From an uncultured Vicinamibacterales bacterium (GTDB lineage: Bacteria; Acidobacteriota; Vicinamibacteria; Vicinamibacterales; UBA8438), in NCBI GenBank assembly GCA_958295905.1, contig OY282382.1, positions 2,752,001-2,816,000 on the forward strand: DNA of 64,000 nt, written 5' to 3'. Positions 33,593 to 52,711 of this stretch are shown here, piece by piece. The position numbers were made by a program, and so were the translations under genes. Numbering within the stretch: the first letter of the stretch is position 1; every line of letters starts with the position of its first letter. A model generated the notes under the pieces. It searched no databases. It was not told the origin of the DNA and was given only the letters and a program-made list of their open reading frames with translations.

Positions 33593-35578
33593 ATGCCCGA
33601 CCACGGCTATTTCGCCACCCTGATCTGGCAGATCGCCGACCTGCTGCGCGGCCCCTACCGCCCCCCGCAGTACGAGCGCGTGATGCTGCCGATGACGGTG
33701 CTCCGCCGCTTCGACTGCGTGCTCGCGCCCACCAAGCCGCAGGTTCTGGCGGAGTACGAACGGCGCAAGCCGCGGATGCGGGGCGAAGCGCTCGACCGCT
33801 GGCTCAACCAGGCGGCCGGGCAGCGCTTCCACAACCATTCGCCGCTCGACTTCGAGAAGCTGCAGGGCGACCCCGACCATATCGCCCAGCACCTGGTCAG
33901 CTATGTCCAGGGCTTCTCGGCCAACGTGCGCCGCATCTTCGAGTACTTCGAGTTCGAGGCCGAGATCGAGAAGATGCAGGAGGCGCAGATCCTCTACATG
34001 GTCGTCTCGCAGTTCCGTTCCGTCGACCTGCATCCCGACACGGTGCCGAACGCGCAGATGGGGCTGATCTTCGAGAACCTCATCCGCCGCTTCAACGAGC
34101 TCGCCAACGAGACCGCCGGCGACCACTTCACGCCGCGCGAAGTCATCCGGCTGATGGTGAGCCTGCTGTTCATCGACGACGACGCGCTGCTCGCCACCCC
34201 CGGCGCCGTCCGCACGCTGCTCGACCCCGCCTGCGGCACCGGCGGCATGCTGGCCGAGGCGCAGGGCTACCTGCGCGACCACCACCGCGAGGCGGCGCTC
34301 TACGTTTACGGCCAGGACTACAACCGGCGCGCCTACGCCACCGCCGCCGCCGACATGCTGATGAAGGAGGTCAGCCACAACGGCGGCGGCGACAACGTGC
34401 GCTTCGGCGACAGCCTCGTCGAGGACCGCTTCGCCGGCCAGACCTTCGATTACTTCCTCACCAACCCGCCCTTCGGCGTCGACTGGAAGCGGCAGCGCGA
34501 CGAGATCCGGCGCGAGCACGAGCAGCAGGGCTTCGCGGGCCGCTTCGGGGCCGGGCTGCCGCGGGTGAACGACGGCTCGCTCCTCTTCCTGCAGCACATG
34601 ATCGCCAAGTTCGAGCCGCTGCGGCCGAAGGAGCGCCGGCACGGCTCGCGCCTCGCCATCGTCTTCAGCGGCTCGCCGCTGTTCACCGGCGGCGCCGGCT
34701 CGGGCGAGAGCAACGTCCGCCGCTGGATCCTGGAGAACGACTGGCTGGAAGCGATTGTCGCCCTGCCCGAGCAGATGTTCTACAACACCGGCATCGGCAC
34801 CTACGTCTGGATCGTCACCAACCGCAAGGCGGCGGCGCGCCGGGGCCGGGTCCAGTTGCTCGACGCCCGCGATCTCTGGACCCCCGGCGGCAGCCCCGAG
34901 AGCCGGCGCAGCCTCGGCGACAAGCGCCGGCACCTGTCGGCCGGCCAGATCGACGAGATCGTGCGCCTCTACGGCCGCTTCGGCGAGGGCGGCCTCTCGA
35001 AGATCTTCGAGAACGCCGACTTCGGCTACACCCGCGTCACCGTCGAGCGCCCGCTCCGCCTCCGCTACCGGATGACGACCGACGACAAGGCGCGTTTCCT
35101 CGACGCCTGCCCGCTGCTGCTCGACGACGTCCAGGCGATCGACCAGTCGATAGGCCGCGACGCGCTGCTCGACTGGAACGCGGTTCGGGAGCGCATCGCC
35201 GGCCTGCTGCGCGAACGCGGGTCGTACTGGCGGAAGACCGAGCACCGGCTGTTCCGCGACGTGTTCACGGTCCGCGACACCGCCGCCGAGCCGGTCCGGG
35301 CGGACGGCGGCGGTGCCGGCTTCGAACCCGATCCGAAGCTGCGCGACTTCGAGAACGTCCCGCTCGCCGAGGACGTCGACGCCTGGTTCGAACGTGAGGT
35401 CCGCCCCCACGTCCCCGACGCCTGGATGGACCGCGCCAAGGACAAGGCGGGCTGCGAGATCAACTTCAACCGGCACTTCTACACCTACACGCCGCCCCGC
35501 CCGCTGGAGGAGATCGACGCCGACCTGAAGCGGGCGGAGGAGGAGATTGTAAGGTTGTTGCGGGAGGTGGTGGGGTGA
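33593..35578 (+). CDS. hsdM: Type I restriction-modification DNA methyltransferase subunit
   Basis: This 661-residue protein has the N-terminal helical domain (LIWQIADLLRGPYRP) and an N6-adenine methyltransferase core. The SAM-binding motif is DPACGTGGML near residue 211 and the catalytic motif is NPPF (LTNPPFGVDW) near residue 291. The C-terminal coiled part ends EEIVRLLREVVG. With HsdS it methylates adenines in a bipartite target and protects host DNA. It overlaps hsdS by GTGA. The cognate hsdR lies 10 kb downstream at 45756, separated by other defence genes. Confidence 0.95.
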   Translation: MPDHGYFATLIWQIADLLRGPYRPPQYERVMLPMTVLRRFDCVLAPTKPQVLAEYERRKPRMRGEALDRWLNQAAGQRFHNHSPLDFEKLQGDPDHIAQHLVSYVQGFSANVRRIFEYFEFEAEIEKMQEAQILYMVVSQFRSVDLHPDTVPNAQMGLIFENLIRRFNELANETAGDHFTPREVIRLMVSLLFIDDDALLATPGAVRTLLDPACGTGGMLAEAQGYLRDHHREAALYVYGQDYNRRAYATAAADMLMKEVSHNGGGDNVRFGDSLVEDRFAGQTFDYFLTNPPFGVDWKRQRDEIRREHEQQGFAGRFGAGLPRVNDGSLLFLQHMIAKFEPLRPKERRHGSRLAIVFSGSPLFTGGAGSGESNVRRWILENDWLEAIVALPEQMFYNTGIGTYVWIVTNRKAAARRGRVQLLDARDLWTPGGSPESRRSLGDKRRHLSAGQIDEIVRLYGRFGEGGLSKIFENADFGYTRVTVERPLRLRYRMTTDDKARFLDACPLLLDDVQAIDQSIGRDALLDWNAVRERIAGLLRERGSYWRKTEHRLFRDVFTVRDTAAEPVRADGGGAGFEPDPKLRDFENVPLAEDVDAWFEREVRPHVPDAWMDRAKDKAGCEINFNRHFYTYTPPRPLEEIDADLKRAEEEIVRLLREVVG

Positions 35579-36867
35579 ACGCGGCTGACGAATCAACTTG
35601 GCCGGTGAAGCGTATGCGTTTCCTGGTGCGGCGCGATCTTTCCGAAGAACGGCAACGACTTCTGGACGGCGTGACGCAGGCTACGTTTCTGCCGATGGAG
35701 GCGGTTGGCGACCGGGGCGACCTCGATCTTTCGATTACTCGATACGTCGACGACGTTCGGAGCGGCTATACGCAGTTCTTCGACGGCGACGTTCTGGTGG
35801 CCAAGATCACGCCGTGTTTCGAAAACGGCAAGGGAGCCCTCGTAAATGCAACCCTGAATGGAATCGGCTTCGGCACCACCGAGCTCCACGTACTGACGCC
35901 CACCAGCGAGATCGACGGGCGCTATCTGTACTACACGACAGTCAGCGACCGTTTTCGCAAACTTGGCCAAGCCGCCATGTTCGGGGCTGCCGGTCAGAAG
36001 CGTGTGCCCGAGGAGTTCGTGCGAAACTATCGGGTTTCCGTTCCCCCGATCGGGAAACAACGGGCCATCGCCGACTACCTCGACCGGGAGACGGCGCGGC
36101 TGGACGCGCTGGTGGCGGCGAAAGAGCGCCTGCTGGCGCTGCTGGCCGAGAAGCGCCGGGCGATCGTCACCCGCACCGTCACCCGCGGCCTCGATCCACG
36201 CGCTTCGATGCGGGATTCCGGCGTCCCGTGGCTGGGCGAGATCCCGGCGCACTGGGAGATCTGGAAGATTGGGCATGTGGCGTCGGTTGGAAACGGATCG
36301 ACACCAAGCCGCGACAACGCCGCATACTGGACCGACGGTACGATCCCCTGGCTCAACAGCGGCGTCGTGAACCGGCCCGAAGTCACTGGCACCGATCAGT
36401 TCGTCACCGCGCTCGCCGTCCGGCGGTGTCACCTGCCCCTGGTGAAAGCGGGCAGCGTTCTGATTGCTATTACCGGCCAGGGAAAGACACGCGGCCGAGC
36501 GGTTGTGTCGTCGATCGACTCCACCATCAATCAGCACCTCGCATTCATACAGCCCAACCACTCCCGGCTGCGGCCGTGGTTCCTCAGGTGGACGCTGTTG
36601 GCCGCCTACGATTTCCTCAGAAGCATCAGTGACGACACCGGCGGCACGAAGGGCGCATTGACATGCGAAGATGTCGCCAATCTCCGCGTGCCGGTTCCGC
36701 CGCCGGGCGAACAAGCGGCGGTTCTCGACCACATCGCCACTGTCACCGAGCGAGTCGATTCGCTTCGGGCCGCGACGGAAAGCACCATCTCGATCGTCAA
36801 GGAGCGCCGGGCCGCGCTCATCGCCGCCGCCGTGACAGGCCGGATCGACGTTGGAAGCGCGTCATGA
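35575..36867 (+). CDS. hsdS: Type I restriction-modification specificity subunit
   Basis: This 430-residue protein starts at GTG within the hsdM stop. It has the classic two target-recognition domains (about residues 10-165 and 215-385), each followed by a long helix: GKQRAIADYLDRETARLDAL in the middle and GEQAAVLDHIATVTERVDSL at the end. It sets the DNA sequence recognised by both methylase and restriction complexes. GC content is visibly lower in the recognition domains, as expected from domain exchange. Its stop overlaps the next gene by ATGA. Confidence 0.95.
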   Translation: MNAADESTWPVKRMRFLVRRDLSEERQRLLDGVTQATFLPMEAVGDRGDLDLSITRYVDDVRSGYTQFFDGDVLVAKITPCFENGKGALVNATLNGIGFGTTELHVLTPTSEIDGRYLYYTTVSDRFRKLGQAAMFGAAGQKRVPEEFVRNYRVSVPPIGKQRAIADYLDRETARLDALVAAKERLLALLAEKRRAIVTRTVTRGLDPRASMRDSGVPWLGEIPAHWEIWKIGHVASVGNGSTPSRDNAAYWTDGTIPWLNSGVVNRPEVTGTDQFVTALAVRRCHLPLVKAGSVLIAITGQGKTRGRAVVSSIDSTINQHLAFIQPNHSRLRPWFLRWTLLAAYDFLRSISDDTGGTKGALTCEDVANLRVPVPPPGEQAAVLDHIATVTERVDSLRAATESTISIVKERRAALIAAAVTGRIDVGSAS

Positions 36868-38549
36868 GAGTCGCCACGCTTCGCATCGAGAACTTCCGCG
36901 GTATCAAGCGCCTCGATCTCGATCTGGATGAGATCACGGTCCTGATCGGCGAGAACAACACCGGCAAGACCGCGGTGCTTGACGCCTTGCGGATCTGCCT
37001 CCGGGATCTCGGACCGCGCCGGCGGGTCGTTTTCGATACGCTCGATTTCCATCTGGCGGAAGCCACGTCGGAACCGGCGACCGCGGCCCCGATCCGGATC
37101 GAAGTCAGGTTTTCCGAACAGGCGGCCGGCGAATGGAGCGATGCGCTCGTGGGACGCCTCAACCGTGACAGCGTTCTTCAGGTGGACGACGCGGGTCTTG
37201 GCCATGTGATCCTGCGCGTCACGTGTGAATACGACGCCGCGAGCCGAGACTTCGCCCAGGATTGGTCGTTCCTGAATCTTGACCGGCAACCGCTGCCGCG
37301 GGTCGGCGAACGCGCGCTGGCGGGTATCCAGCGGGAAGTGTCCTATTTCTACCTGCAAGCTCTTCGAGACGCCCAGTACCACTTTGGGGACAAGGGACCG
37401 TTCTGGCGACCGTTTCTGAAGGACACGCAACTGCCGGAAGAAAAGAAGGCTGAAATCGAGAACAAGCTCCGGGAAGTGAACGAGCTGGTCGTCAGCTCCC
37501 ACGACAGCTTCGAGCGGGTCCACGACGGCCTTGGTCGCGTGCAGGATGTCGTTCCGCTCGGGGCCGGTGACGTCGTCTCCATCGAGGCGGTTCCCGGTCG
37601 GATCTTCGACATGCTCGCCAAGGCCCGCGTCAATCTGGGTACCGTAGAGGGGGCGAAGATCCCCGTCGGGCGTCACGGGGAGGGTACGCAGAGCCTTGCG
37701 GTGCTGATGCTGTTCGCGGCCTTTCTCGAGGCATGGCCCGAGGGCGATCCCATCGTGGCGCTGGAGGAACCGGAGGCGCACCTGCATCCGTCGGCGATCC
37801 GCGCGTTGCAACGTCTTGTGAGCGGTTTGTCGGGCCAGAAGCTGATCTCCACGCACAGCGGCGATCTGCTCGCCGAGATCGAAATCCAACAGATCCGGCG
37901 GCTGGCGCGCACCAGGAACGGGATCCAGTCCTTCCGGGTTCCCGCCGGTCTCCTGTCCGGCGAGGAAACACGGAAGTTCAACTACCACGTACGGCAGGCT
38001 CGCGGCGAGCTGCTGTTCGCCCGCTGCTGGCTGCTCGTCGAGGGAGAAACCGAATGCTGGATCTTTCCCGCCGCCGCCCGCGCGTTGGGCATCGACTTGG
38101 ATCGGGAAGGCGTCAGGACCGTCGCGTACAAACATTCGGGTGTCGGCCTTCTGGCGAAGGTCGCGAACGCGCTCGGCATCGCGTGGTACTGCGTGGGTGA
38201 CAACGATGACGAGGGGCCAAAAGCCAGGACGACGCTGGACCCTCTGGATTCGAGTCATGAAAAGGATCGGGTAGTGCTTCCGTACCAGAACATCGAGATT
38301 CATCTTTTGAGCAATGGCTACGGCGACGTTTACGATGCCGATATGCCGAATCAGAACCGAAACAAGATGGAGAAACAACCGGGCGAGACGAATTATTGGG
38401 TCGAGTACGCCAAGAATTTCCCTAAAAAATACAAGACGCATGCGGCGGCAAGAGTCGCCGTGGAGATGGAGAAACGCGGCGACGATGGGGTCACGGCCGA
38501 GATTCGTGCGGTGTTGGACAGAGTGGTATCTCTTGCGAGAGATGCATGA
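36864..38549 (+). CDS. gajA: OLD-family ATP-dependent endonuclease, Gabija GajA-like
   Basis: This 561-residue protein has an ABC-type ATPase: Walker A GENNTGKTA (residues 29-37), a signature-like GEGTQSLAVL, Walker B IVALEEPEAHLHP near 300 and an H-loop ISTHSGDLL near 330. A TOPRIM domain follows: catalytic Glu in LLVEGETECWIF near 393, D-x-D in VGDNDDEGPKA near 445, and a further Glu in YQNIEIHLL. Domain order and length match GajA, the DNA-nicking nuclease of Gabija anti-phage systems. Direct coupling to a UvrD-like helicase gene supports this. It overlaps hsdS and the helicase gene by ATGA each. Confidence 0.88.
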   Translation: MRVATLRIENFRGIKRLDLDLDEITVLIGENNTGKTAVLDALRICLRDLGPRRRVVFDTLDFHLAEATSEPATAAPIRIEVRFSEQAAGEWSDALVGRLNRDSVLQVDDAGLGHVILRVTCEYDAASRDFAQDWSFLNLDRQPLPRVGERALAGIQREVSYFYLQALRDAQYHFGDKGPFWRPFLKDTQLPEEKKAEIENKLREVNELVVSSHDSFERVHDGLGRVQDVVPLGAGDVVSIEAVPGRIFDMLAKARVNLGTVEGAKIPVGRHGEGTQSLAVLMLFAAFLEAWPEGDPIVALEEPEAHLHPSAIRALQRLVSGLSGQKLISTHSGDLLAEIEIQQIRRLARTRNGIQSFRVPAGLLSGEETRKFNYHVRQARGELLFARCWLLVEGETECWIFPAAARALGIDLDREGVRTVAYKHSGVGLLAKVANALGIAWYCVGDNDDEGPKARTTLDPLDSSHEKDRVVLPYQNIEIHLLSNGYGDVYDADMPNQNRNKMEKQPGETNYWVEYAKNFPKKYKTHAAARVAVEMEKRGDDGVTAEIRAVLDRVVSLARDA

Positions 38550-40453
38550 TGGAAATCTCTTTCGACTCCCTCAACGACAACCAGCGGCAGGCTGTGGCGT
38601 GGAGTGACGGCCCGCTGCTGGTGCTGGCCGGACCCGGTTCCGGCAAGACGCGCGTGCTTGCCTTCCGGGTCGCCCGGATCCTCAAAGAGAGCGACGAAGC
38701 GTCGGTGCTGGCGCTGACCTTCACGAACAAGGCAGCAGCGGAGATGCGCGAGCGGGTCGAGCAGCTTCTGGGCCATCGGGCGGACCGCGCCCATCTGTGC
38801 ACGTTCCACGCGTTCGCCGCCGACGTCCTGCGCCAGCACGGGAGCCACGTGGGATTGCGGCCGGACTTCATGCTGCTCACCCAGGACGAGGATCGTCTCG
38901 CCATTCTCGACGAGGTCGTGGCCGGACTGCCCGGCGACGGCGCTCCGCCGCCGACGGATCGCCGGAATCTCCTCGACTTGGTCGACCACGTGTTCGCCGA
39001 GTCGTACGACGGCGGAGTCCGTGCGCGGACGCTGGTTCGCACGCCCGCATGGCTGCCCCGGTTGCACGCGGAGTACTGCAGGACCCTCGTCGCCGGCAAC
39101 CGGCTGGACTTCGGAAGCCTGCTGCATTTCGCGCGCCGTCTGTTGAAGGTGAAGCCGGGCGTCGCGCGGGTCGTGCGTCTCGGGTGGACCCACGTGTGCG
39201 TCGACGAGTTTCAGGACACCAACAAGGCGCAGTACGATCTGCTTCGGTTGATCGCGCCCGGAAGGCGGCACGCCCTGTTCGTGGTCGGAGACGACGACCA
39301 GATCATCTACCAGTGGAACGGCGCGAGCCCGGAACGATTGGCGGCGTTGCGGCGCGACTACGACCTGGGCGTCGTCCAGCTTCCCGAGTGTTACCGTTGT
39401 CCGGCGTCCATCATCGCGATCGCCAACCGTCTGATCGCGCGCAACGAGCGCCGCACGCCGGACAAGCAGGTCCTGACTTCGGCGGTCGCGGCGGCGCACG
39501 ATGACGGCGGCGGTGTTCGACACCGGGCGTTCCCGTCGCCGGAAGACGAGGTAGCGTTCCTGCCGCGCGACATCCGGGAGAGGCGGCTCGACGCGGCCGA
39601 CTGCGTGGTGCTCGGGCGCACCGCGAAACTGCTGGCCCGCGCCGCCGACGCCCTGAACGACGGGGGCGTTCCCGCCTGTCTGCTGCGGCGGAAGACCGAT
39701 TTCGAGTCGCCGGCGGTGCGCGTGCTCGTGGAGACGTTGCGTCTAGCGAACGCGCGGCATGACCGCGACGTCCTGCGCCGGCTCTGCGTGGCGTGGACGG
39801 GACTGTCCGGCGCGGCCCTGGAGCCGGAGGCCGTCGCGGCGGCGGCGGCCTTGTCGGGCGGCGACTTCCTGCGGGCCTGGGCCGATACGGCGGCGGCGCA
39901 GCCTTCCGGCCGCGCCGGGCCGGTGCTCGATCGCCTGCGGACGGATCTGGTCGATGCGCTGGCGTTTCCGTCCATCGTGAACTGGTTTCTGGAAGGCGGC
40001 TGGAAATCCTGGAGCGGCGCCGAAGATCGGCAGGACGATCGGGAACTCGCCGGCGAACTGGAGGTCTGGCGCAGTCTGCACGACAACATCGTTCACGAGT
40101 ACGGTGCCAACGTGACCCTGAACGTCTACCTTCAGCAGATGGACTTGGCGTCGAAGGCACCCCTTCCGAGGCCGAACGAAGTACGCTGCCTGACCATCCA
40201 CGGGTCGAAGGGACTGGAGTTCCGGCACGTCTACCTGATCGGCATGGCGCAGGAGGTCTTTCCGTCGTTCCAGGCGCTCCGCAAGGGTGGACGGAGCCGG
40301 GAGCTGGAGGAAGAGCGCCGGAACTGCTTCGTCGCCATCACGCGCGTCGAGCGCACGTTGACCCTGACCCGCGCCGAGCGGTACTACGGCTATCCGAAGC
40401 GGCCGTCGCAGTTTCTCGCCGAGATGGGCGTCCGTGCGGAGAACGGCCGATGA
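38546..40453 (+). CDS. gajB: UvrD/Rep-type helicase, Gabija GajB-like
   Basis: This 635-residue superfamily 1 helicase has motif Q (LNDNQRQAV), motif I LAGPGSGKTRVLAF, motif Ia LTFTNKAAAEM, motif II CVDEFQDTNKAQYD, motif III VVGDDDQIIYQWNGAS, motif V TIHGSKGLEF and motif VI FVAITRVERTL. In Gabija, GajB senses DNA ends or nucleotides and stimulates GajA to cut invading DNA. It is somewhat longer than well-studied GajB (about 500 residues). The start overlaps the gajA stop by ATGA. Confidence 0.88.
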   Translation: MMEISFDSLNDNQRQAVAWSDGPLLVLAGPGSGKTRVLAFRVARILKESDEASVLALTFTNKAAAEMRERVEQLLGHRADRAHLCTFHAFAADVLRQHGSHVGLRPDFMLLTQDEDRLAILDEVVAGLPGDGAPPPTDRRNLLDLVDHVFAESYDGGVRARTLVRTPAWLPRLHAEYCRTLVAGNRLDFGSLLHFARRLLKVKPGVARVVRLGWTHVCVDEFQDTNKAQYDLLRLIAPGRRHALFVVGDDDQIIYQWNGASPERLAALRRDYDLGVVQLPECYRCPASIIAIANRLIARNERRTPDKQVLTSAVAAAHDDGGGVRHRAFPSPEDEVAFLPRDIRERRLDAADCVVLGRTAKLLARAADALNDGGVPACLLRRKTDFESPAVRVLVETLRLANARHDRDVLRRLCVAWTGLSGAALEPEAVAAAAALSGGDFLRAWADTAAAQPSGRAGPVLDRLRTDLVDALAFPSIVNWFLEGGWKSWSGAEDRQDDRELAGELEVWRSLHDNIVHEYGANVTLNVYLQQMDLASKAPLPRPNEVRCLTIHGSKGLEFRHVYLIGMAQEVFPSFQALRKGGRSRELEEERRNCFVAITRVERTLTLTRAERYYGYPKRPSQFLAEMGVRAENGR

Positions 40454-40757
40454 ACAGGGTTCGGCGCAGAGAGGGGTGGTTTCCGGCGGCCGGCAACACC
40501 CGGTGCGCCGGTGCCGCGGGGTTGGGAGACCGGGGAACCCGCGTTGGAGACGGGTATCGCGATAGGTCGCTTCGCCCGCCGCGCCGAGCGTCTCGATCTC
40601 GGCCGGTTCGGACGGCTTCACGCCGACTTGATTGCCGACCATGTTCTTCCGAAGCGAGATGCCCGCGGCCGGTTCACCCGGGACTTGATCAAGAACGAGC
40701 GGATCGCGCTGGTCGAGCTGACCAAGACGCCTACGACGCGGACGCCAACCGGGTCGA
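40454..40757 (+). pseudogene. Fragment of an unidentified gene
   Basis: Directly after the gajB stop, in the same frame, protein-like sequence runs through RLDLGRFGRLHADLIADHVL and TRDLIKNERIALVELTK. A one-base frameshift then seems needed to continue as AYDADANRVDR. It stops abruptly at about 40757, where a reversed dehydrogenase fragment begins. I do not recognise the family. It looks like the 3' remainder of a broken gene. Confidence 0.4.
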
Positions 40758-41296: not shown

Positions 41297-41438
41297 GTCG
41301 GGATGGTACTCGCCGGCGTCCCGGGCGAATCCGGACATCGAACGTCTCCCGAAACGGCGGCGAGATTCCGGGGCAAGGGTTTGATGCTAGACTGCGTTGG
41401 CATGAAGCCCGCCAGCCCCACGTTCTGAAGGAATCGTC

Positions 41439-42770
41439 ATGACGCCCGATGATCGTATCTTCCTGAAAAGTTTCTTCCAGAATCTTCTGGATCAGTCGCT
41501 TGATCCATCGGACAGGCGTTACGTTCCTCTGTACGGTGACCCCGAATTGGTGGAAGAGGATCCTGTCCAACGACTCTCCCAGGCGATTGAATGGACATCG
41601 GAAAGCGTGCAGCTTCTCTCCGGATATCGCGGCACGGGTAAAAGTACGGAGCTGAAGCGACTCAAGGACCGTCTGGAGAAATCCAACTACCTCGTGTTCC
41701 TGTGCGACGTCGAAGATTACCTTAACTTGTCGACGCCCATTGACGTGAGCGACTTCCTGATGGTCGTCGCCGGGGCGTTCGGCGAAGCCGTGAACAAGCG
41801 TTTGGAAAAAGACGGCCATCAGTCGCACGAGGGCTATTGGGAACGGTTTCGTACCCTCTGGAGCGGACTGGCAATCGAAGCTCCCAAATTGTCCACCTCG
41901 ATCGGGACGGGTCCGGTATCGATCGGAATCCAGGCCAACCTGAAAAGCGACCCCACGTTCAAGGAGCAACTACAGAAACATATGGCCGGGCATCTGGGTG
42001 CTCTCGTCGCCCACGTCCAAAAGTTCCTCGAAGACTGTGTGAAGCTGTTGAGAGAACACTGCGGCGATCGGGAAATCGTGCTGCTCCTCGATTCCATCGA
42101 ACATATCAAGGGCACACCGGCGAATGCGGAGGATGTTCACAATTCGGTGGAAAGGTTGTTCGCGGGTCATCCGGAAAAACTTCGCCTGCCCAACCTGCAC
42201 GTGGTTTACACCGTCCCGCCGTATCTCAAGGTCCGTCACCCTAACGTGGGCGCGCTCTATGGGCCGTCCGGCCTTAAAGTTCTCCCCGCATTCAAGCTGT
42301 ATACCCAGGAAGGAAAGCGTATTTCGGAAAGCTTCGACGCCATGGAACGAGTCGTCAGCCGTCGGGGCGAGTGGAAGAGGTTGTTGGGCAAGGAGCGCCC
42401 CCTTCTGGATCGCCTGATACAATCTTCGGGCGGACACCTGCGAGATCTTCTACGTCTCCTGGCCGAAGTCCTGCTCCGGACGAGGATGCTTCCCGTACCT
42501 GAACGCACCGTAGACTCCGCCATCAGTCAGGTGAGAACGGAATTCCTGCCTATTCCAAACAACGACGCGCTCTGGCTGGCCAAGATTGCCGACAGCCATG
42601 AAGTCGCCCTGGAGGAACTGGCGGCTCTTCCGTCCCTTGCTCGTTTCTTCGACACCCATCTGGTGCTCTGCTACCGCAACGGCGAGGAGTGGTACGACGT
42701 CCATCCCCTGGTTCGGGAGCATGTTCGCGCGCAAGCTGAACAGGTCCGCCAGCCCCGTGCCCTTCCGTAA
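41439..42770 (+). CDS. P-loop NTPase (STAND/AAA-like), partner of the TPR protein
   Basis: This 443-residue protein has Walker A LLSGYRGTGKSTELKRLK (residues 60-77), a Walker B-like EIVLLLDSIEHI near 213-223 and a sensor-like VVYTVPPYLKVRHP. The C-terminal third is helical, like the arm of STAND ATPases. The pair NTPase plus TPR protein is seen in other bacteria next to defence genes and resembles NTP-dependent conflict systems, where the NTPase acts as a switch. Codon use is visibly less GC-rich than in hsdM or hsdR, suggesting separate acquisition. The TPR gene starts 18 nt later. No known defence name can be given. Confidence 0.75.
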   Translation: MTPDDRIFLKSFFQNLLDQSLDPSDRRYVPLYGDPELVEEDPVQRLSQAIEWTSESVQLLSGYRGTGKSTELKRLKDRLEKSNYLVFLCDVEDYLNLSTPIDVSDFLMVVAGAFGEAVNKRLEKDGHQSHEGYWERFRTLWSGLAIEAPKLSTSIGTGPVSIGIQANLKSDPTFKEQLQKHMAGHLGALVAHVQKFLEDCVKLLREHCGDREIVLLLDSIEHIKGTPANAEDVHNSVERLFAGHPEKLRLPNLHVVYTVPPYLKVRHPNVGALYGPSGLKVLPAFKLYTQEGKRISESFDAMERVVSRRGEWKRLLGKERPLLDRLIQSSGGHLRDLLRLLAEVLLRTRMLPVPERTVDSAISQVRTEFLPIPNNDALWLAKIADSHEVALEELAALPSLARFFDTHLVLCYRNGEEWYDVHPLVREHVRAQAEQVRQPRALP

Positions 42771-42788
42771 TCGCGTGAGGCTCCGAAG

Positions 42789-45152
42789 GTGACGACCGAC
42801 GCTTTGCCCACGGACGGCGACGAAATCGTTCTCGACCCGGCGGCCGAGGCCGAATGGCAGATACTCCGCCGGCAGATCGAGTTCGCCTCCGGCTTCTGGC
42901 TCGGGTTCATCTTCTGCCCGTCCCCGCGCCCGGTCGCCGCGCTGCGGCGGCGGGTGGAACAGATCTACCGGCTTCGTGCGCTGCCGGTACGGCTGCTCCG
43001 CCCCACCGCACCGGAAGAGCTTCGCGAGATGCTGCCTCGGGTGTTGGAGTCGGCGTCCGTGGAGGCGGGCTGCATCTGGGTCGAGGCCGTTCACCTGGAC
43101 GTTTCGACGTTCACGGATGAGGAGCCCGGTCCTTGGGCTGCGGCTTGGGATTGGACCCTGCTGCGCACCAACGAGCATCGCGAAGTCCTGCGTCGCCGGC
43201 TGAACGGGGGGTTGGTGTACGCGGTCCCGCCGGAGTGGAAGCCCCGCACCCGCAATGCCGCTCCCGATCTGTGGTCGATACGTTCCCTGGTGCTCGATCT
43301 GCCGGCAAGCGCCGGCGTGTCACGGGATGCCGATCAGCGGGGCGCGGTGGAAAGGGAATCCCCCGTACTTGATTTCCTCTCCAATACCGCCATTGACGTT
43401 GATTTCGCACTGGCGGAAGCGCGTCGAATCGAAGGCAAGGCGAAATACGACCCGCGCTCTCATGCGCGCGTACTCCTGCGGGCGGTCGAGGGGTTGCTGG
43501 CGCAGGACCGGACAGAGGAGGCGGTAGAGACGGCTCACAGAACACTGGGTATCTTGAAGAATGTGTCAGATCCGGGACGCCTGTTGGCGGAAGCGCTGGT
43601 GTGGGCAGGAAAGGCGGAGCGGGCGGACGGCGACGTTGCCGCGGCCGAGTCGCACCTTGATGAAGCAGTGCACCGTTGGAAGTTCATCCTCGACAGGGAC
43701 GGTGAATCACCACAAGCGTTGCGCGACCTGACCGTCAGTCTTGGCCGGCTCGGAGATGTCCGGCGCGACTCGGGTGACCTCGCGGCTGCGACGACGGCGT
43801 TCGAAGAATCCCTTGCTCTCGACCGCCGCCTGCTTGAAGCGTATGGCGAGACGCCGCAGTCGTTGCGCGACCTCTCCGTTAGCCTTGAAAGGCTCGGAGA
43901 TGTCCAGCGCGAGTGGGGTGACCTCGCGGCTGCGACGGGGGCGTTCGAAGAATCCCTCGCCCTGTGTCGCCGTGTTCTTGAAGCGTATGGCGAGACGCCG
44001 CAGTTGTTGCGCGACCTGTCCGTCAGTCTTAACAAGCTCGGAGATGTCCGGCGCGACTCGGGTGACCTCGCGGCTGCGACAGGGGCGTTCGAAGAATCCC
44101 TCGCCCTCGACCGTCGCATTCTTGAAGCGCATGGCGAGACGCCGCAGTCGTTGCGCGACCTGTCCGTCAGTCTTGGCCGGCTCGGAGATGTCCGGCGCGA
44201 CTCGGGTGACCTCGCGGCTGCGACGGAGGCGTTCGAAGACTCTCTCGCCCTCGACCGTCGCATTCTTGAAGCGTATGGCGAGACGCCGCAGTCGTTGCGC
44301 GACCTGTCCGTCAGCCTTGGCCGGCTCGGAGATGTCCAGCGCAAATCGGGTGACCTCGCGGCTGCGACGGGGGCGTTCGAAGACTCCCTCGCCCTGCATC
44401 GCCGCCTGCTTGAAGCGTATGGCGAGACGCCGCAGAGGTTGCGCGACCTGTCCGTCAGTCTTAACAAGCTCGGAGATGTCCGGCGCGAATCGGGTGGTCT
44501 CGAAGCTGCGACGGGGGCGTTCGAAGAATCCCTCGCCCTGCGTCGCCGCATTCTTGAAGCGTATGGCGAGACGCCGCAGAGGTTGCGCGACCTGTCCGTC
44601 AGTCTTGACAGGCTCGGAGATGTCCGGCGCGAATCGGGTGACCTCGCGGCTGCGACGACGGCGTTCGAAGAATCCCTTGCTCTCTCCCGCCGCCTGCTTG
44701 AAGCGCATGGCGAGACGCCGCAGGGGTTGCGCGACCTGTCCGTCAGTCTTGGCCGGCTCGGAGATGTCCGGCGCGACTCGGGTGACCTCGCGGCTGCGAC
44801 GACGGCGTTCGAAGAATCCCTTGCTCTCTCCCGCCGCCTGCTTGAAGCGCATGGCGAGACGCCGCAGGGGTTGCGCGACCTGTCCGTCAGTCTTGGCCGG
44901 CTCGGAGATGTCCGGCGCGACTCGGGTGACCTCGCGGCTGCGACGACGGCGTTCGAAGAATCCCTTGCTCTCGACCGCCGCATTCTTGAAGCGTATGGCG
45001 AGACGCCGCAGGGGTTGCGCGACCTGTCCGTCAGTCTTCGCAAGCTCGGAGATGTCCGGCGCGCATCCGGGGATTTGACAGCCGCTACGGCTGTATTCGA
45101 GGAATCCGCTGCCCTGGATCGGCGTTTGCGCAATATCACGAGTGAGACATGA
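42789..45152 (+). CDS. TPR-repeat protein with N-terminal STAND-associated domain
   Basis: This 787-residue protein starts at GTG 42789. Residues 1-190 are a globular domain with the motifs ASGFWLGFIFCPSPRPVAAL and NAAPDLWSIRSLVLDLP, which I recall from proteins paired with GYRGTGKST-type NTPases. Residues 190-295 are two or three divergent TPRs. Residues about 298-775 hold ten near-identical 48-residue units, each reading LEAYGETPQSLRDLSVSL plus GRLGDVRRDSGDLAAATTAF (with variations): two-helix TPRs forming a long superhelix. It probably senses or binds a partner and controls the NTPase. A truncated methyltransferase frame overlaps its stop by ATGA. Confidence 0.8.
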   Translation: MTTDALPTDGDEIVLDPAAEAEWQILRRQIEFASGFWLGFIFCPSPRPVAALRRRVEQIYRLRALPVRLLRPTAPEELREMLPRVLESASVEAGCIWVEAVHLDVSTFTDEEPGPWAAAWDWTLLRTNEHREVLRRRLNGGLVYAVPPEWKPRTRNAAPDLWSIRSLVLDLPASAGVSRDADQRGAVERESPVLDFLSNTAIDVDFALAEARRIEGKAKYDPRSHARVLLRAVEGLLAQDRTEEAVETAHRTLGILKNVSDPGRLLAEALVWAGKAERADGDVAAAESHLDEAVHRWKFILDRDGESPQALRDLTVSLGRLGDVRRDSGDLAAATTAFEESLALDRRLLEAYGETPQSLRDLSVSLERLGDVQREWGDLAAATGAFEESLALCRRVLEAYGETPQLLRDLSVSLNKLGDVRRDSGDLAAATGAFEESLALDRRILEAHGETPQSLRDLSVSLGRLGDVRRDSGDLAAATEAFEDSLALDRRILEAYGETPQSLRDLSVSLGRLGDVQRKSGDLAAATGAFEDSLALHRRLLEAYGETPQRLRDLSVSLNKLGDVRRESGGLEAATGAFEESLALRRRILEAYGETPQRLRDLSVSLDRLGDVRRESGDLAAATTAFEESLALSRRLLEAHGETPQGLRDLSVSLGRLGDVRRDSGDLAAATTAFEESLALSRRLLEAHGETPQGLRDLSVSLGRLGDVRRDSGDLAAATTAFEESLALDRRILEAYGETPQGLRDLSVSLRKLGDVRRASGDLTAATAVFEESAALDRRLRNITSET
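43680..45119 (+). repeat. Ten 144-bp in-frame tandem repeats
   Basis: The marker CGGAGATGTCC recurs at 43751, 43895, 44039, 44183, 44327, 44471, 44615, 44759, 44903 and 45047, exactly 144 nt apart. Identity between units is very high at DNA level, and the consecutive units covering about 44690-44835 and 44834-44979 appear identical. The variation is concentrated at a few codons (e.g. AYGE/AHGE, DRR/SRR/HRR). Confidence 0.95.
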
Positions 45153-45487
45153 GCCAGTCATTCAAGAAACTGGTCACGCTGCTGAAGGAACTGTTCCAGC
45201 TCGACCGGCCGGATCTGGACTTCGGGTTCTATCGCATCATGCACGCGAAGAGCGCCGAGGTGACGCAGTTTCTGGAACAGGACCTGTTGCCGCAGGTGCA
45301 GGCGGCCTTGCCGCAGCATCATCTGCGCCGTCTGATGGGCATCGGCACGCCCCGGAGCCTGCAGGGGCGGGCTCTATCGATCATTTTCCGGCTGATCGGG
45401 CGTTGGAGGCGCCTGACACGCACTTGGGGGTTCATATGGACATCGACGGTGCTCGTCGGCGCCGTCGCTCCTCGTCAAGCTGCCTGA
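45149..45487 (+). pseudogene. N-terminal stub of a DNA methyltransferase-like gene
   Basis: ATG 45149 overlaps the TPR stop. The first about 53 residues (LKELFQLDRPDLDFGFYRIM and AEVTQFLEQDLLPQVQAAL) match the start of very large adenine-specific DNA methyltransferases of the type III or stand-alone kind. After about 45310 the frame becomes unrelated sequence and stops at 45487. The catalytic core is missing. The original operon was probably NTPase-TPR-methyltransferase. Confidence 0.55.
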
Positions 45488-45529
45488 ACAGGCGTGCTCA
45501 GTGGACAGACTTCTTCCACGGGCTGTTAG

Positions 45530-45668
45530 GGATGATGCTGTTTCAGAGGCTGAAGCTGTCGGCGCTGTTGTCGTTCGGACCGGAGGGATCGATCTGCCAA
45601 TGGAGCGGCTGAACGTGCTGATCGGCCGGAACGGATCCGGCGAGTCGAACCTACTGGAGGCTGGATGA
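45530..45668 (+). pseudogene. Degenerate AAA_21-type ATPase start
   Basis: The sequence reads MLFQRLKLSALLSFGPEG in one frame; after a frameshift near 45592 it continues IDLPMERLNVLIGRNGSGES followed by NLLEAG and a stop. This is the N-terminal Walker A region of a RecF-like ATPase, but the P-loop Lys (GSGKS) is Glu, the frame is broken and the rest of the gene is gone. It is a clear relic. Confidence 0.6.
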
Positions 45669-45755: not shown

Positions 45756-48700
45756 GTGAAGCCGACCGGCGAGGCCGCCTTCGAAACGGTCATCGAGGCG
45801 CATCTGCTGGCGAACGGTTACGTCCCGGTCTCCGGCGCCGGCTTCGACCGCGGGCGGGCGATCTTCCCCGACACCGCGCTCGGGTTCATCCGCGAGACCC
45901 AGCCGCGGGAGTGGTCCCGGCTGGAGGCGCTGCTCGGCGAGCGGACCGGCGGGCAGGTGCTGGCCGACCTGTGCAAGTGGATGGACGTGCACGGCGCGCT
46001 GGCGACGCTGCGCCACGGGTTCAAGTGCTACGGCCGGCTGCTGCGCATCGCCTTCTTCAAGGCGGCCCACGGGCTGAATCCGGAGCTGGAGGCGCGCTAC
46101 GCCGCGAACCGGAATGGCATCACCCGCCAACTGCGCTTCTCGCCGCGCTCGGAGCAGTCGCTCGACGTGGTGCTGAGCGTGAACGGGGTGCCGGTCGTCA
46201 CGGTGGAGCTCAAGAACCCGCTGACCGGGCAGATGGTCGAGGACGCGCGCCGGCAGTACCGGGAGGACCGTGACCCCCGTGAGCCGATCTTCGCGTTCAA
46301 GCGGCGCGCGCTCGTCCACTTCGCCGCCGATACCGAGTCGGTGGCGATGACGACCCGGCTCGCGGGCGCCGCAACCCGTTTCCTGCCCTTCGACCGGGGG
46401 TGCGGCGGGGGCGCCGGCAACCCGCCCGACCCGCGGGGGCGCAGCTACCGCACCGCGTACCTGTGGGAGGAGGTCCTCGAACGCGGCAGCCTGCTCGACC
46501 TGCTGGCGCGGTTCATCCACCTGCAGGCCGGCGAGAAGCGCGACGAGCGCGGGCGGAAGGCGCGGGCCGAGACGATGATCTGCCCCCGCTACCACCAGCT
46601 TCAGGCGGTGCGCCTGCTGGTCGAGACGGCACAGCGCGAAGGCGTCGGCCACAACGCCCTCGTCGAGCACTCCGCGGGCAGCGGCAAGAGCAACACCATC
46701 GGCTGGCTGACGCACCGTCTCGCCTCGCTGCACGACGCGCAGGACCGCCGCGTCTTCGACAGCGTGATCGTGGTGACCGACCGCGTGGTGCTCGATCAGC
46801 AGCTTCAGGACACGATCTACCAGTTCGAGCACAAGCGCGGCGTGGTGCGGAAGATCGGCGACAACTCGCGCCAGCTTGCCGAGGCGCTCGAACAGGCGGT
46901 CCCGATCGTCATCACGACGCTCCAGAAGTTCCCGTTCGTCGCCCGCCAGTTGCTCCGCATGGCGGAGGAGCGGGGCGCGGAGCCGACCGGCGTGCTGCCG
47001 ACCCGCCGCTGCGCGGTGGTGATCGACGAGGCGCACAGCTCGCAGGGCGGCGAGGCGGCGACCGAACTGAACGCGGTGCTCGGCGGCGAGGCGCTGCGGG
47101 CGGAGGCGAAGCGGCGGGCGGCCGAGGAGGGCCGGGAGGATTCGGCGGAGCTGTTCGTCAGCATGGCCAAGCGCGGCCGGCAGGCGAACCTGAGCTTCTT
47201 CGCCTTCACGGCGACGCCGAAGCACCGGACGCTCAAGGTGTTCGGCCGCGACGGCCGGCCCGCGCACCGCTACACGATGCGGCAGGCGATCGAGGAGGGG
47301 TTCATCCTCGACGTGCTGAAGCACTACACGTCGTACGCCGCCTACTACCGGCTCCTGAAGGCGTGCGCCGGCGATCCGCACGTGGAGCGGAAGACGGCGG
47401 CCCGCGCGCTGGCGCGCTTCCTGCGGCTCCATCCGCACAACGTCGCCCAGAAGACGGAAGTCATGGTCGAGCACTTCCAGGCCGTCACCCGCCACCGGAT
47501 CGGCGGGCGCGCCAAGGCGATGGTGGTCACCGGCTCGCGCCTCGAGGCGGTCCGCTACAAGCAGAGCTTCGACCGCTACGTCCGGGAGAAGGGGTACGCG
47601 ATCAGGTCGCTCGTCGCGTTCTCGGGCGCGGTGGAGGACGACCGGCTCCCGGGCGTGACGTACACCGAAGAGCAGATGAACGACGGCCTGCGTGAGAAGG
47701 AGCTGCCGGAGCGGTTCGCGGCGCCCGGCTGCCACGTGCTGCTCGTGGCCGAGAAATACCAGACCGGCTTCGATCAGCCGCTGCTGCACACGATGTACGT
47801 CGACAAGCGGCTGGCCGGCATCCAGGCGGTGCAGACGCTCTCGCGCCTCAACCGGATCCACCCGCTCAAGGAGGACACGTTCGTCCTCGACTTCGTCAAC
47901 GACCGCGGCGAAATCCACGACGCGTTCAAGACGTATTACGAAGGCGCCGCGCTGGGCGACGAGGTCGACCCCGCGCGCCTGTACGCCGTCAAGGGCGATC
48001 TCGACGCGTCGGGCGTCTATCTCGACGAAGAGATCGACCGGTTCTGCGCGGCGTACTTCCAGCCGGTGCGGCACCAGAGCGCGGCCGACCACCGCGCCAT
48101 GAACGCGGCGCTCGACCCGGCGGTTTCCCGTTTCGCGGCGCGCCTCGACGACGACGAAGACGAGGCCGAGCTCTGGCGCGGCAGGGCGCAGGCGTTCCGC
48201 AACCTGTATGCGTTCCTCAGCCAGGTGATCCCGTACCAGGACTCGGATCTGGAGCGCCTCTACGTCTATCTCCGCCACCTGTCGGCGAAGCTCCCGCGGC
48301 GGCGCTCCGGCCCCGCCTATCGGTTCGACGACGACGTGCGCCTGGAGTATTACCGCCTGCAGAAGATCGCCGAGGGGTCGATTGCGCTCGGGGAAGGCGG
48401 GGCGCGCGCCCTCGACGGACCGACCGAGGTGGGCAGCGGCGCGGCCCGCGGGGAGGACGTGCCGCTCTCGCAGCTCATCCATGTCGTCAACGAGCGCTTC
48501 GGTACGGAATTCGTCCAGGCCGACCAGCTCTTCTTCGACCAGATCGTCCAGGCCGCGGTCGCCGACGACGCCCTGCGCCGGACGGCCGCGGTCAACGCCG
48601 AGGACAAGTTCAGCCTGGTGTTCAAGCAGTTGGTCGAGGGCCTCTTCGTCGAGCGGATGGACCAGAACGAGGAGATCTTCGTCCGCTACATGAACGACCC

Positions 48701-49361
48701 GGCGTTCCAGGGCGTGGTCACCGACTGGCTGGCGTCGGAGGCGTACCGCCGGCTTCAGGCGGCGGCGTCGGACGAGGCAGGCGCGGGCGCGGCGATCGCG
48801 GGCGCGGCGGTCGAGCGCGCGGGAGTCGGGGGCGCGGCGGTCGTGGGTGCGGCGGCCGGGAGCGCCGGCGGCCTGCGGCTGGTCGAGGGCCGGCCGGAGG
48901 ACCGCTACGTCAGTTGCGTTCCGCTCGTGCCGCTTGCGGCGGCGGCCGGGGCGTTCAGCGGCCCGCAGGACGCGGGCGCGCAGGAAGACTGGCAATGGGT
49001 CGCGGCCCACCCGAAGCATCGCCCGCGGCCGGGCATGTTCGTCGCGCAGGTGGCGGGGAAGTCGATGGAACCGCTCGTTCCCGACGGCGCGTACGGCCTG
49101 TTTCGCGCCCCCGTCGAAGGCGCGCGGCAGGGGAAGATCGTGCTGGCGCAGCTTCGCGGCGCGGCCGATCCGGAGACCGGCGCGCGCTACACGGTCAAGC
49201 GCTACGAGAGCGAGAAAGCGCCCGGCGGCGACTCCTGGCGGCATGTCTCGATCACGCTCAAGCCGATCAATCCGGCCTTCGAACCTATCGTCCTGACCGG
49301 GGCGGACGAGGGCGCGTGCGACGTGGTGGCCGAGCTGGTCGACGTGATGCCGGGCGGTTGA
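45756..49361 (+). CDS. hsdR: Type I restriction subunit R with C-terminal LexA/S24-like domain
   Basis: This 1201-residue protein starts with GTG. The N-terminal nuclease domain has the PD-(D/E)XK-type LDVVLSVNGVPVVTVELKNP (about 147-166). The helicase motor follows with Walker A EHSAGSGKSNTIGW (near 306), DEAH in VVIDEAHSSQGG, TATP in FFAFTATPKH, and motif VI-like AVQTLSRLNR. After an Ala/Gly-rich linker (about 1010-1050) comes an S24/LexA-like domain: VPLVPLAAAAGAFSG with Ala1064-Gly1065, GKSMEPLVPDGAYGLFR with Ser1103, and RYTVKRYESEK-type Lys1148. The spacing mirrors LexA cleavage site, Ser and Lys. HsdR cuts unmodified DNA with HsdM and HsdS; the extra domain suggests self-cleavage control. 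Confidence 0.9.
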   Translation: MKPTGEAAFETVIEAHLLANGYVPVSGAGFDRGRAIFPDTALGFIRETQPREWSRLEALLGERTGGQVLADLCKWMDVHGALATLRHGFKCYGRLLRIAFFKAAHGLNPELEARYAANRNGITRQLRFSPRSEQSLDVVLSVNGVPVVTVELKNPLTGQMVEDARRQYREDRDPREPIFAFKRRALVHFAADTESVAMTTRLAGAATRFLPFDRGCGGGAGNPPDPRGRSYRTAYLWEEVLERGSLLDLLARFIHLQAGEKRDERGRKARAETMICPRYHQLQAVRLLVETAQREGVGHNALVEHSAGSGKSNTIGWLTHRLASLHDAQDRRVFDSVIVVTDRVVLDQQLQDTIYQFEHKRGVVRKIGDNSRQLAEALEQAVPIVITTLQKFPFVARQLLRMAEERGAEPTGVLPTRRCAVVIDEAHSSQGGEAATELNAVLGGEALRAEAKRRAAEEGREDSAELFVSMAKRGRQANLSFFAFTATPKHRTLKVFGRDGRPAHRYTMRQAIEEGFILDVLKHYTSYAAYYRLLKACAGDPHVERKTAARALARFLRLHPHNVAQKTEVMVEHFQAVTRHRIGGRAKAMVVTGSRLEAVRYKQSFDRYVREKGYAIRSLVAFSGAVEDDRLPGVTYTEEQMNDGLREKELPERFAAPGCHVLLVAEKYQTGFDQPLLHTMYVDKRLAGIQAVQTLSRLNRIHPLKEDTFVLDFVNDRGEIHDAFKTYYEGAALGDEVDPARLYAVKGDLDASGVYLDEEIDRFCAAYFQPVRHQSAADHRAMNAALDPAVSRFAARLDDDEDEAELWRGRAQAFRNLYAFLSQVIPYQDSDLERLYVYLRHLSAKLPRRRSGPAYRFDDDVRLEYYRLQKIAEGSIALGEGGARALDGPTEVGSGAARGEDVPLSQLIHVVNERFGTEFVQADQLFFDQIVQAAVADDALRRTAAVNAEDKFSLVFKQLVEGLFVERMDQNEEIFVRYMNDPAFQGVVTDWLASEAYRRLQAAASDEAGAGAAIAGAAVERAGVGGAAVVGAAAGSAGGLRLVEGRPEDRYVSCVPLVPLAAAAGAFSGPQDAGAQEDWQWVAAHPKHRPRPGMFVAQVAGKSMEPLVPDGAYGLFRAPVEGARQGKIVLAQLRGAADPETGARYTVKRYESEKAPGGDSWRHVSITLKPINPAFEPIVLTGADEGACDVVAELVDVMPGG

Positions 49362-50103: not shown

Positions 50104-51642
50104 CTAGGTGCTTTCCACCTCGAAGGCGGCGATGTTGCGTTCCCGCTCACTGAATTCCACGCCGATCAGGTGGATCGGCTCGCCCAGGTGGCGGTACTTG
50201 TCCACGTAGCGCTTCTCCCTGAGCTGCGCCAGCGCTGCGCCAGCCCCGGCGGTCGTCTTGAACTCGAACACGCACACGCCGCCGTCGTGGCGTACCGCCA
50301 GGTCCGACCGCCCGCGACCCGTGCTCTCCTCCGCCGCCACTTCCAGTCCCGCGCCTGCGAAATGGGAATAGAACACACTGGCGTAGTATCCCTCGTAGTG
50401 GGCGATGTCGTTCTTCATGTGCCACTGATAGGGCACGCTCGCGAAGAAAGCGCGAAACAGGCGCTCCACGCCGTCGAAGTCGTGGTTCGCCAGCAGCCGG
50501 CGCAGGTGCGAGCACTCGGTCTGGGCCGGCACGTCCGGCGCCATCTCCGCCAGCAGGCTCATGTTCAGGCTGCAGCGCACTTCGCGGTTCGGATAACCCA
50601 GCCGATACAGGTAGCCGACCGCGTCGTGTTCTTCGGCGATGATCGTGAGGTAGCCGGTCTGGAACAGCAGCGCCTCGGTCTTCGCATGCTTCACGTCGGA
50701 CGCGGAGAGATCGGCGTCACCGACGACGAGGGCTTCGAGCGCCGCCGGATCCACCTTGCGTTCCAGCAGCGTCTTCGGCAGGAAAGCCGGCGTGCCGGTC
50801 TCGAACCAGTGCGCCCTGAACTCGCGGCTGCGCAGGAACAGCAGCATGCCGTAGGGGTTGTAGACGTTCCGTTCGCCGCGCCAGTTGTAACCGTCGTACC
50901 AGTCGCGGACGGTCTGTCGATCCACCCCCTGGAGCTCCGGCGCGAATACCGTGTCCAGGTCGTCGTCGGTGTAGCCGCAGATGGCGGCGAAGCGGCGATC
51001 CAGCGTGAGGTCGGTGAGGTTGTTGAGCTCCGAGAAGATGCTTACCTTGCTGAACTTGCTCACTCCTGTGAAGAAACTGAACCGGATCAGCGCGTCGCTG
51101 TCCTTCACCACGCCGTACACGCCGCGCAGGAAGTCCCGATTGTCCTCCGCCAGCGCCTGGTCGTCCAGCGCGTCGGTGATCGGCCGGTCGTATTCGTCCA
51201 CCAGCACCACGACGCGTTGACCGCTCTTCTCCCGCAGCGCCTCGATCAACCCCGCGAAGCGGCCCTCGGGCGTGGCATAGTCCAACGCCACGCCGGCGGC
51301 GCGTTCAAAGGCGGCCAACTTGTCCGCGAAACTCGCTTCCAGCCGGCCGGGACGATTGAAGCGCCCCGCGGCGAAGCTGAATCGCAGCACCGGATGGCGC
51401 GCGGACCAGTCCCACCGGTCGTGGATGGCGAGGCCGCGAAACAGCGGCTCGTTGCCCTCGAAGAGCTCCTTGAGCGTGTCCACGAACAGGCTCTTGCCGA
51501 ACCGCCGGGGGCGCGAGAGGAAGTAGTGCTTGCCTTCCTCCACCAGACGCAGCGCGAAGGCCGTCTTGTCGACATAGTAGCAGTCGTCTTCGCGGATTTC
51601 ACGGAAGGTCTGAATGCCGGTGGGCAGCTTGCGTCGCTTCAC
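50104..51642 (-). CDS. AAA-ATPase-like / PD-(D/E)XK protein
   Basis: GTG 51642 begins KRRKLPTGIQTFREIREDDC, the standard N-terminus of this family (PF09820-type AAA-ATPase-like plus PDDEXK_9), giving 512 residues. Walker A is LSRPRRFGKSLFVDTL, Walker B VVVLVDEYDRPITDAL, and a long helical middle follows. The C-terminal nuclease-like part has STGRGRSDLAVRHDGG and VCVFEFKTTAG, the D and E-x-K positions. The family is hugely expanded in Bacteroidetes and others, with unknown function and links to mobile DNA. A MITE-like element lies 423 nt upstream of its start. Confidence 0.9.
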   Translation of the reverse strand: MKRRKLPTGIQTFREIREDDCYYVDKTAFALRLVEEGKHYFLSRPRRFGKSLFVDTLKELFEGNEPLFRGLAIHDRWDWSARHPVLRFSFAAGRFNRPGRLEASFADKLAAFERAAGVALDYATPEGRFAGLIEALREKSGQRVVVLVDEYDRPITDALDDQALAEDNRDFLRGVYGVVKDSDALIRFSFFTGVSKFSKVSIFSELNNLTDLTLDRRFAAICGYTDDDLDTVFAPELQGVDRQTVRDWYDGYNWRGERNVYNPYGMLLFLRSREFRAHWFETGTPAFLPKTLLERKVDPAALEALVVGDADLSASDVKHAKTEALLFQTGYLTIIAEEHDAVGYLYRLGYPNREVRCSLNMSLLAEMAPDVPAQTECSHLRRLLANHDFDGVERLFRAFFASVPYQWHMKNDIAHYEGYYASVFYSHFAGAGLEVAAEESTGRGRSDLAVRHDGGVCVFEFKTTAGAGAALAQLREKRYVDKYRHLGEPIHLIGVEFSERERNIAAFEVEST

Positions 51643-52064
51643 GGCTGCACCATACGCTCGGTGGAAACGGTCGCCCGGATGGAGCAGTTCGGCCGACCGG
51701 GACGGCCGACCGAAGGCGCCGCAGAGCGTCGTACGACGAACCGCCGAGCAACACACGATTACAATCCCCCGGTTCCGTGCTGGTCGAACCCTCCGAGGGC
51801 GCGCGTAGCTCTCGACGTAACCATCTTCCAGTCGCAGACGTTATACAGTCCGAACTGGGGATCGGCTCCACCGGGCCGAACAAGAAAACGGCCGCGGCCG
51901 ACTGATGCCGGCCGTGGCCTGTGTCCCGCCTCTGGCGCCCCAAATTCCAGATACCCGCTTGTTCGGTCCAGGTCCGAAGTCAGCTATGTTTTCCTGGAGT
52001 CGAACGGGACAGGTTCCAGTGTAGCAGGGTTTGGCCCAAACGCCGACCCGGTGCCTTGGGCGGG
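51643..52064. other. Intergenic stretch left of MITE copy B
   Basis: No gene is recognised between the ATPase start and the MITE-like element. It contains a GC-rich inverted segment around 51888-51920 (GGCCGCGGCC and GGCCGGCATC-type pairs) and no other clear signal. Confidence 0.4.
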
Positions 52065-52236: not shown

Positions 52237-52711
52237 TTGGGGGGGAGCAGCCACCGCGCCGGCAGGACGGGCGAGGTGCGGTTCGGGTGGGAGGTCTGCG
52301 CTTGGACCCTCAGGTCTTCATCTGTAGAATCTCCCGTGGCGGACGTCCGCCACGACGACAGGAAGCTGTCATGCCGCAGAAACTCTCCCGGACTCCCTGG
52401 CGCCGCGTGGTGCTGCCGGTGCCGGCCTACCTTCGGAGGTGCGGCGGTTCGTGATCGATGTCGTCGTCGGCCGGGTGCTGACGGCGGGCGGCGGGGGAGG
52501 TGGTCGCCGGGCTCGTCGACGCGACCACCGGTTATCTGCCGCACCGGTACAACTTCGGCTGGGGTGCCGCGCGGGCCGGTGCCTGCATCCGGTACGCGCT
52601 GTCGTGCAACCTGTCGGACCGGGTGCCCGGCGTCATGATCAACCGTGGAGATCGGTCCCCGCACGCGTGGCCGCATCTTCCGAAACGCGAACGGCGGCCT
52701 GGAGGCGCGGG
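52237..52711. other. Intergenic region with possible gene fragment
   Basis: The frame 52500-52718 reads VDATTGYLPHRYNFGWGAAR and ARAGACIRYALSCNLSDRVP, which is protein-like but unrecognised, lacks a good start and runs into the next gene. A 20-nt perfect palindrome is noted separately. No promoter could be assigned for the ATPase gene that follows. Confidence 0.35.
52335..52354. promoter_or_regulatory. 20-nt perfect palindrome
   Basis: CGTGGCGGACGTCCGCCACG is fully self-complementary. It lies 358 nt before the ATPase gene and 19 nt before a small ATG frame. It may be a dimeric repressor site; nothing else in the sequence supports a specific regulator. Confidence 0.3.

Follow-up and report, generated by a model that had tools for sequence, protein, structure and literature searches.

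A LexA/UmuD-like S24 domain fused to a type I restriction subunit: a candidate self-cleavage switch found also on other prokaryotic DNA defence enzymes

Known systems and the fused restriction subunit

LexA, UmuD and phage lambda CI, all of peptidase family S24, have C-terminal domains that bind RecA filaments and dimerise; the N-terminal fragment of LexA, with its Ala-Ala C-terminus, is degraded by ClpXP. DNA damage leads to suppression of type I restriction enzymes, in part independently of ClpXP, as in the alleviation of EcoR124I (PMC3874165); EcoKI is alleviated by ClpXP degradation of the translocating HsdR subunit (PMC4231737). The protein described here, encoded in a window of 64,000 nucleotides from an uncultured Vicinamibacterales bacterium (contig OY282382.1), joins an HsdR to an S24 domain. 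It has in common with LexA, UmuD and lambda CI the fold, the Ser/Lys dyad, the Ala-Gly cut site and the order cut site-Ser-Lys; it differs from them in having no DNA-binding domain, in being tethered to a restriction motor-nuclease, and in its longer distances between these residues (39 and 45). With unfused type I HsdR proteins of the same family (about 75% identical, e.g., L031 and L029) it shares the nuclease, motor and helical parts and the hsdM-hsdS operon; these relatives, in contrast, end near residue 1005 without an S24 domain, and no adjacent S24 gene was detected. The job proposed for the fusion resembles EcoKI alleviation by ClpXP, in that HsdR would be shut off when it attacks host DNA (PMC4231737; PMC3874165); whereas control of EcoKI lies with a host protease distinct from the enzyme, and its HsdR has yielded no degron, the switch proposed here would lie within HsdR and be keyed to RecA.

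The hsdR::S24 gene (45756..49361, forward strand) begins with a GTG codon preceded by GGGAGG and stays open for 1201 codons; its identity as a type I restriction subunit with a C-terminal S24 domain is drawn from the open frame, the Pfam domains and 20 homologous fusions. Pfam matches to the whole protein, all above cut-offs, comprise HSDR_N (5e-12), SWI2_SNF2 (5e-25), a T1R_D3-like domain (2e-10) and Peptidase_S24 (9e-8); ResIII also matches the motor region together with SWI2_SNF2. The HSDR_N nuclease domain (residues 116-204; 46101..46367, forward strand) has an intact D137...E151-x-K153 motif that is kept in the fusions, and the first part of the SF2 motor (residues 280-521; 46593..47318, forward strand) has conserved Walker A (306-312), DEAH (424-427) and TATPK motifs; SRLNR is intact as well. 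The match to the NCBIfam hsdR model TIGR00348, at 175.5 bits, falls below the curated cut-off of 284.55; the remaining HsdR features (nuclease, motor, cognate hsdM and hsdS) are present, and as judged from its sequence the protein represents a divergent HsdR subfamily. The Ala/Gly-rich linker between the HsdR core and the S24 domain (about residues 1005-1040; 48768..48875, forward strand), recognized already in an earlier note on this DNA, is a variable region of 11-39 residues in the alignment; its long Ala/Gly-rich form is peculiar to the window sequence (39 residues vs. 11-22 in relatives). It has low pLDDT in the full-length AlphaFold model, which is unusable for placing the S24 domain (mean pLDDT 53.7, pTM 0.32).

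Upstream of hsdR, on the same strand, lie hsdM (33593..35578; 661 aa; N6_Mtase and HsdM_N; PADLOC MTase_I, 3.6e-254) and hsdS (35575..36867; 430 aa; Methylase_S; PADLOC Specificity_I, 3e-105), a cognate pair that the earlier note had not mentioned and that rules out an orphan hsdR without a methylase. Between hsdS and hsdR, also in forward orientation, a Gabija pair (36864..40453) overlaps hsdS by four bases, so that a second defence system is embedded in the type I operon; it consists of gajA (36864-38549; PADLOC GajA, 1e-193) and gajB (38546-40453; PADLOC GajB, 6e-214), and is cargo rather than a part of the switch. The corresponding slot in relatives is usually occupied by PtuA/PtuB-like (Septu) genes (e.g., L012:5987-7339 and L015:7294-7992), and in others by an ImmA/IrrE-like metallopeptidase and DUF4411 pair or by other genes; the variety of genes in this slot shows a type I operon whose cargo is exchangeable, and the S24 fusion is found alongside more than one kind of cargo.

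The remainder of the slot in the window contains a Gfo/Idh/MocA dehydrogenase-like fragment (40700-41338, reverse strand; named by eye), apparently an insertion remnant; an AAA ATPase of 443 aa and, after it, a 787-aa TPR protein rich in near-identical repeats (41439-45152), possibly a further cargo system; and, just upstream of hsdR (45149-45665), debris in which a type III methylase-like protein is represented by roughly its first 50 residues and an AAA protein by a broken start (LNVLIGRNGSGESNLLE). Immediately upstream of hsdR, no site resembling a promoter or a terminator was seen. Downstream, an AAA-ATPase-like protein of 550 aa with a C-terminal nuclease-like part and no PADLOC match (50104-51756, reverse strand) separates hsdR from a HEC-01-like AAA ATPase and its partner gene (52439-54677), a pair that marks the region as a defence island. 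The genome encodes RecA and three LexAs; the proposed trigger therefore exists in the organism.

The S24 domain and its conservation among HsdR fusions

The S24 domain occupies residues 1050-1201 (48903..49358, forward strand). The Peptidase_S24 profile covers residues 1061-1192 and scores 32.3 bits when the full sequence is searched and 38.2 bits (E 1.3e-9) when the domain is searched by itself, against a cut-off of 23.3. Sequence searches of the PDB with this domain gave no significant match, but comparison of folds did: an AlphaFold2 model of residues 1038-1201, built from 20 input sequences (mean pLDDT 83.5, pTM 0.81), had LexA, CI and UmuD' as its top Foldseek matches, with LexA of T. maritima as the best structural match (Z 13.0; rmsd 2.6 over 125 residues), and the closest solved structures include RecA-filament complexes of LexA, UmuD' and lambda CI. 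The earlier note had proposed a LexA/UmuD-like domain fused to HsdR, and had suggested the comparison with LexA and UmuD; profile and predicted fold concur that the HsdR tail is a true S24 (LexA/UmuD/CI) domain. The N-terminal winged helix-turn-helix of LexA (LexA_DNA_bind) is absent from the Pfam matches; the protein is not a LexA, though it may work in a LexA-like manner.

The predicted cut site between Ala1064 and Gly1065 (48945..48950), the predicted catalytic Ser1103 (49062..49064) and the predicted catalytic Lys1148 (49197..49199), all on the forward strand, stand in the translated frame where the earlier note had placed them, Ser1103 and Lys1148 within the G-x-S-M and T-x-K motifs of the S24 family; the Ala-Gly pair, too, suits that family, in which an Ala-Gly or Cys-Gly cut site precedes the serine. 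The spacing of 45 residues that it gave from Ser1103 to Lys1148 is correct; its 38 residues from cut site to serine hold only when counted from Gly1065 (38 in most homologues), the distance from Ala1064 being 39. In phage lambda CI the corresponding spacings are 38 and 43. The same genome's three LexAs have 34-36 residues from cut site to Ser and 37-38 from Ser to Lys, and in the light of both comparisons the longer spacing is ordinary for S24 proteins.

Relatives of the window HsdR were sought in one genome per species across 84,980 species, and proved numerous. Among the best 80 relatives, 20 are HsdR-S24 fusions (L002-L018, L020, L041 and L049), which is not a frequency because the list is ranked by score and favours longer matches; they span eight phyla (Acidobacteriota, Myxococcota, Pseudomonadota, Nitrospirota, Binatota, Chloroflexota, Gemmatimonadota and Rhodothermota). 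Most of the other 60 (at most 77% identical) end at approximately residue 1001-1009, the usual end of window-type HsdR, and a profile search of the flanks of these 60 unfused loci found no stand-alone S24 gene beside HsdR. One fusion, L018, has a frameshift inside the S24 domain that may be a sequencing error. Phage records gave no match and plasmids a single one at 40% identity; one viral contig carries an HsdR-S24 fusion (L136). Ala1063, Ala1064, Gly1065, Ser1103 and Lys1148 are invariant in the window protein and all 20 further fusions (21/21), so that the residues singled out in the earlier note are retained throughout; in this alignment, as in that of the 18 modules described below, the conservation of cut site and dyad is far beyond chance.

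The S24 module on other defence enzymes

Beyond what the earlier note had considered, the S24 module is common to several defence enzymes rather than specific to HsdR. Its profile matches 36 of 396 sampled genomes of the window's phylum, and besides window-type HsdR the module is located at or close to the C-terminus of type ISP restriction enzymes (L112, L113 and L114; Type_ISP_C followed by S24), of DruE-like DEAD/MZB helicases of about 2000 aa (L115, identified as DruE by PADLOC at 1.3e-102, and L117 and L125, assigned by the same Pfam domains as L115), of Schlafen-group-3 helicases (L118 and L120), of ResIII proteins (L116 and L119), and of a DUF3037 protein (L121:2625-3440, reverse strand). 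The exception is an EcoEI-type HsdR (L123) with the module near its N-terminus, where it splits the nuclease domain, separating the first helix from the ADYVLYD...EAK (D...ExK) strands; the insertion point was derived from alignment with two module-less relatives (L134 and L135). A free S24 ORF of 152 aa in L122 shares 63% identity with the module fused to the ResIII protein L119, and no related enzyme was found beside it; it was rejected as a separate type and looks like a remnant.

The fused enzymes listed by class above (L112-L120, L123 and L125) have the same module, cut site and dyad as the window protein in unrelated or distant hosts; they differ in the nuclease-domain insertion of L123 and in the Ala-Ala-Ser site of L116 and L119. 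An alignment of 18 modules, that of the window and 17 carried by different host proteins, has pairwise identities averaging 47% (lowest 33%) and no more than 16 invariant columns out of 164, among them Ala1063, Ala1064, Ser1103, Met1104 and Lys1148. The cut site reads AA|G or AA|S in 18/18 modules, Gly1065 being replaced by Ser in the two ResIII proteins. A domain kept for its fold or for binding only would not be expected to retain both cut site and dyad, and their joint conservation thus argues for selected autoproteolysis.

In a tree of HsdR cores, 20 of the 21 fusions fall into one region and L020 stands apart; at least four changes are forced, among them losses of the S24 domain inside the fused clade in L019, which has a clean end, and in L058, which is truncated. 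In the S24 tree, the modules of the HsdR proteins L010 and L020 group with those of Schlafen helicases (support 95); modules from DruE and ISP proteins fall among HsdR modules, although many of those branches are weak. Most likely, defence enzymes have acquired and lost the module and exchanged it with one another. We tentatively propose, at slightly less than even odds, that the S24 self-cleavage module is mobile and that many DNA defence enzymes of prokaryotes share it as a switch sensing damage: type I HsdR of two subfamilies, the type ISP/IIG enzymes, the DruE-like and Schlafen-group-3 helicases, and the ResIII proteins. Defence activity would then follow the RecA state directly, through cleavage of protein and not through transcription. 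The component families are known; the open literature searched, with subscription journals mostly uncovered, contained no report of S24-restriction enzyme fusions or of S24 reuse across defence enzymes, and the combination and its reuse are new to that literature. The architecture may already stand in annotation.

A putative built-in off switch and its alternatives

The reading that we prefer, with a probability of roughly 45%, is an HsdR with a built-in, RecA-triggered, LexA-type self-cleavage switch, whose direction is probably off and which would amount to built-in restriction alleviation. The earlier note had already suggested that DNA damage or RecA could release or inactivate the motor-nuclease; this suggestion is supported in part, by the S24 identity, the fold and the conserved residues. 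When the enzyme itself or other damage breaks host DNA, RecA would assemble into filaments on single-stranded DNA; these would be bound by the S24 domain, whose cut-site loop would enter the Ser1103/Lys1148 active site, and the chain would be cut between Ala1064 and Gly1065. The motor-nuclease would thereby be separated from the S24 domain, the counterpart of the dimerising domain in LexA, and left with a new ...LAAAA C-terminus; this Ala-Ala end could be read by ClpXP, as is that of the LexA N-terminal fragment, and restriction would drop until repair is done, a hard-wired form of alleviation. The off direction is preferred because a cut in L123 would break the nuclease domain, and because a cut in the C-terminal fusions would remove a domain of the LexA-dimerising type and expose a ClpXP-type Ala-Ala end. 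The suppression of type I enzymes after DNA damage, partly independent of ClpXP (PMC3874165), speaks for an off switch, as does the failure to find a degron in EcoKI HsdR (PMC4231737); the plasmid-induced alleviation of EcoKI in E. coli, which is independent of LexA cleavage (PMC11109961), speaks against it. It also counts against an off switch that the cut alone need not inactivate HsdR, since the piece remaining in the C-terminal fusions is a normal full-length HsdR.

The same piece, which has the length of the unfused and presumably active HsdRs plus a short tail, would suit a switch of opposite sign, in which the S24 domain restrains the motor-nuclease until damage-triggered self-cleavage frees a fully active HsdR, so that loading of RecA upon phage replication or breakage would raise restriction; UmuD, after all, is activated by cleavage (PMC3765255). 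Such an on-switch appears unlikely, given that the cut in L123 would break the nuclease domain and that increased restriction during self-damage would harm the host. The trigger of self-cleavage could also be something else than RecA: a phage product, HsdR itself as it translocates, or a different stress signal. The LexA-like IrvR, for which a response without RecA has been reported (PMC7101444), counts against the RecA-triggered reading and provides a precedent for such control, and cut site and dyad are kept whatever the host protein; but all closest solved folds are the RecA-responsive LexA, UmuD and CI, and the genome encodes RecA and LexA, so that a different trigger is considered unlikely.

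Two further alternatives dispense with cleavage or with function. The filament binding and dimerisation of the LexA, UmuD and CI C-terminal domains, and the RecA complexes among the fold matches, would be consistent with a tether or dimeriser, never cut in life, through which the defence enzyme is recruited to RecA filaments or one HsdR is paired with another; binding or pairing alone, however, is not expected to preserve the Ala-Ala-Gly, the Ser and the Lys jointly in modules that are 33-47% identical, which makes this reading distinctly improbable. That the domain is a passenger, functionless in restriction, could be argued from its losses in L019 and L058, which mark it as dispensable, but is very improbable in view of the eight-phylum spread with invariant catalytic residues and the repeated fusion to different defence enzymes.

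How DNA-destroying defences spare their own host is a long-standing question, and the degron of EcoKI HsdR was never found (PMC4231737). With a predicted cut site and dyad inside the restriction subunit, this question becomes directly testable by point mutations. The proposed RecA-triggered switch would connect defence against phages with SOS signalling at the level of protein; and, as the module is carried by several defence enzymes, one mechanism could explain the control of many systems.
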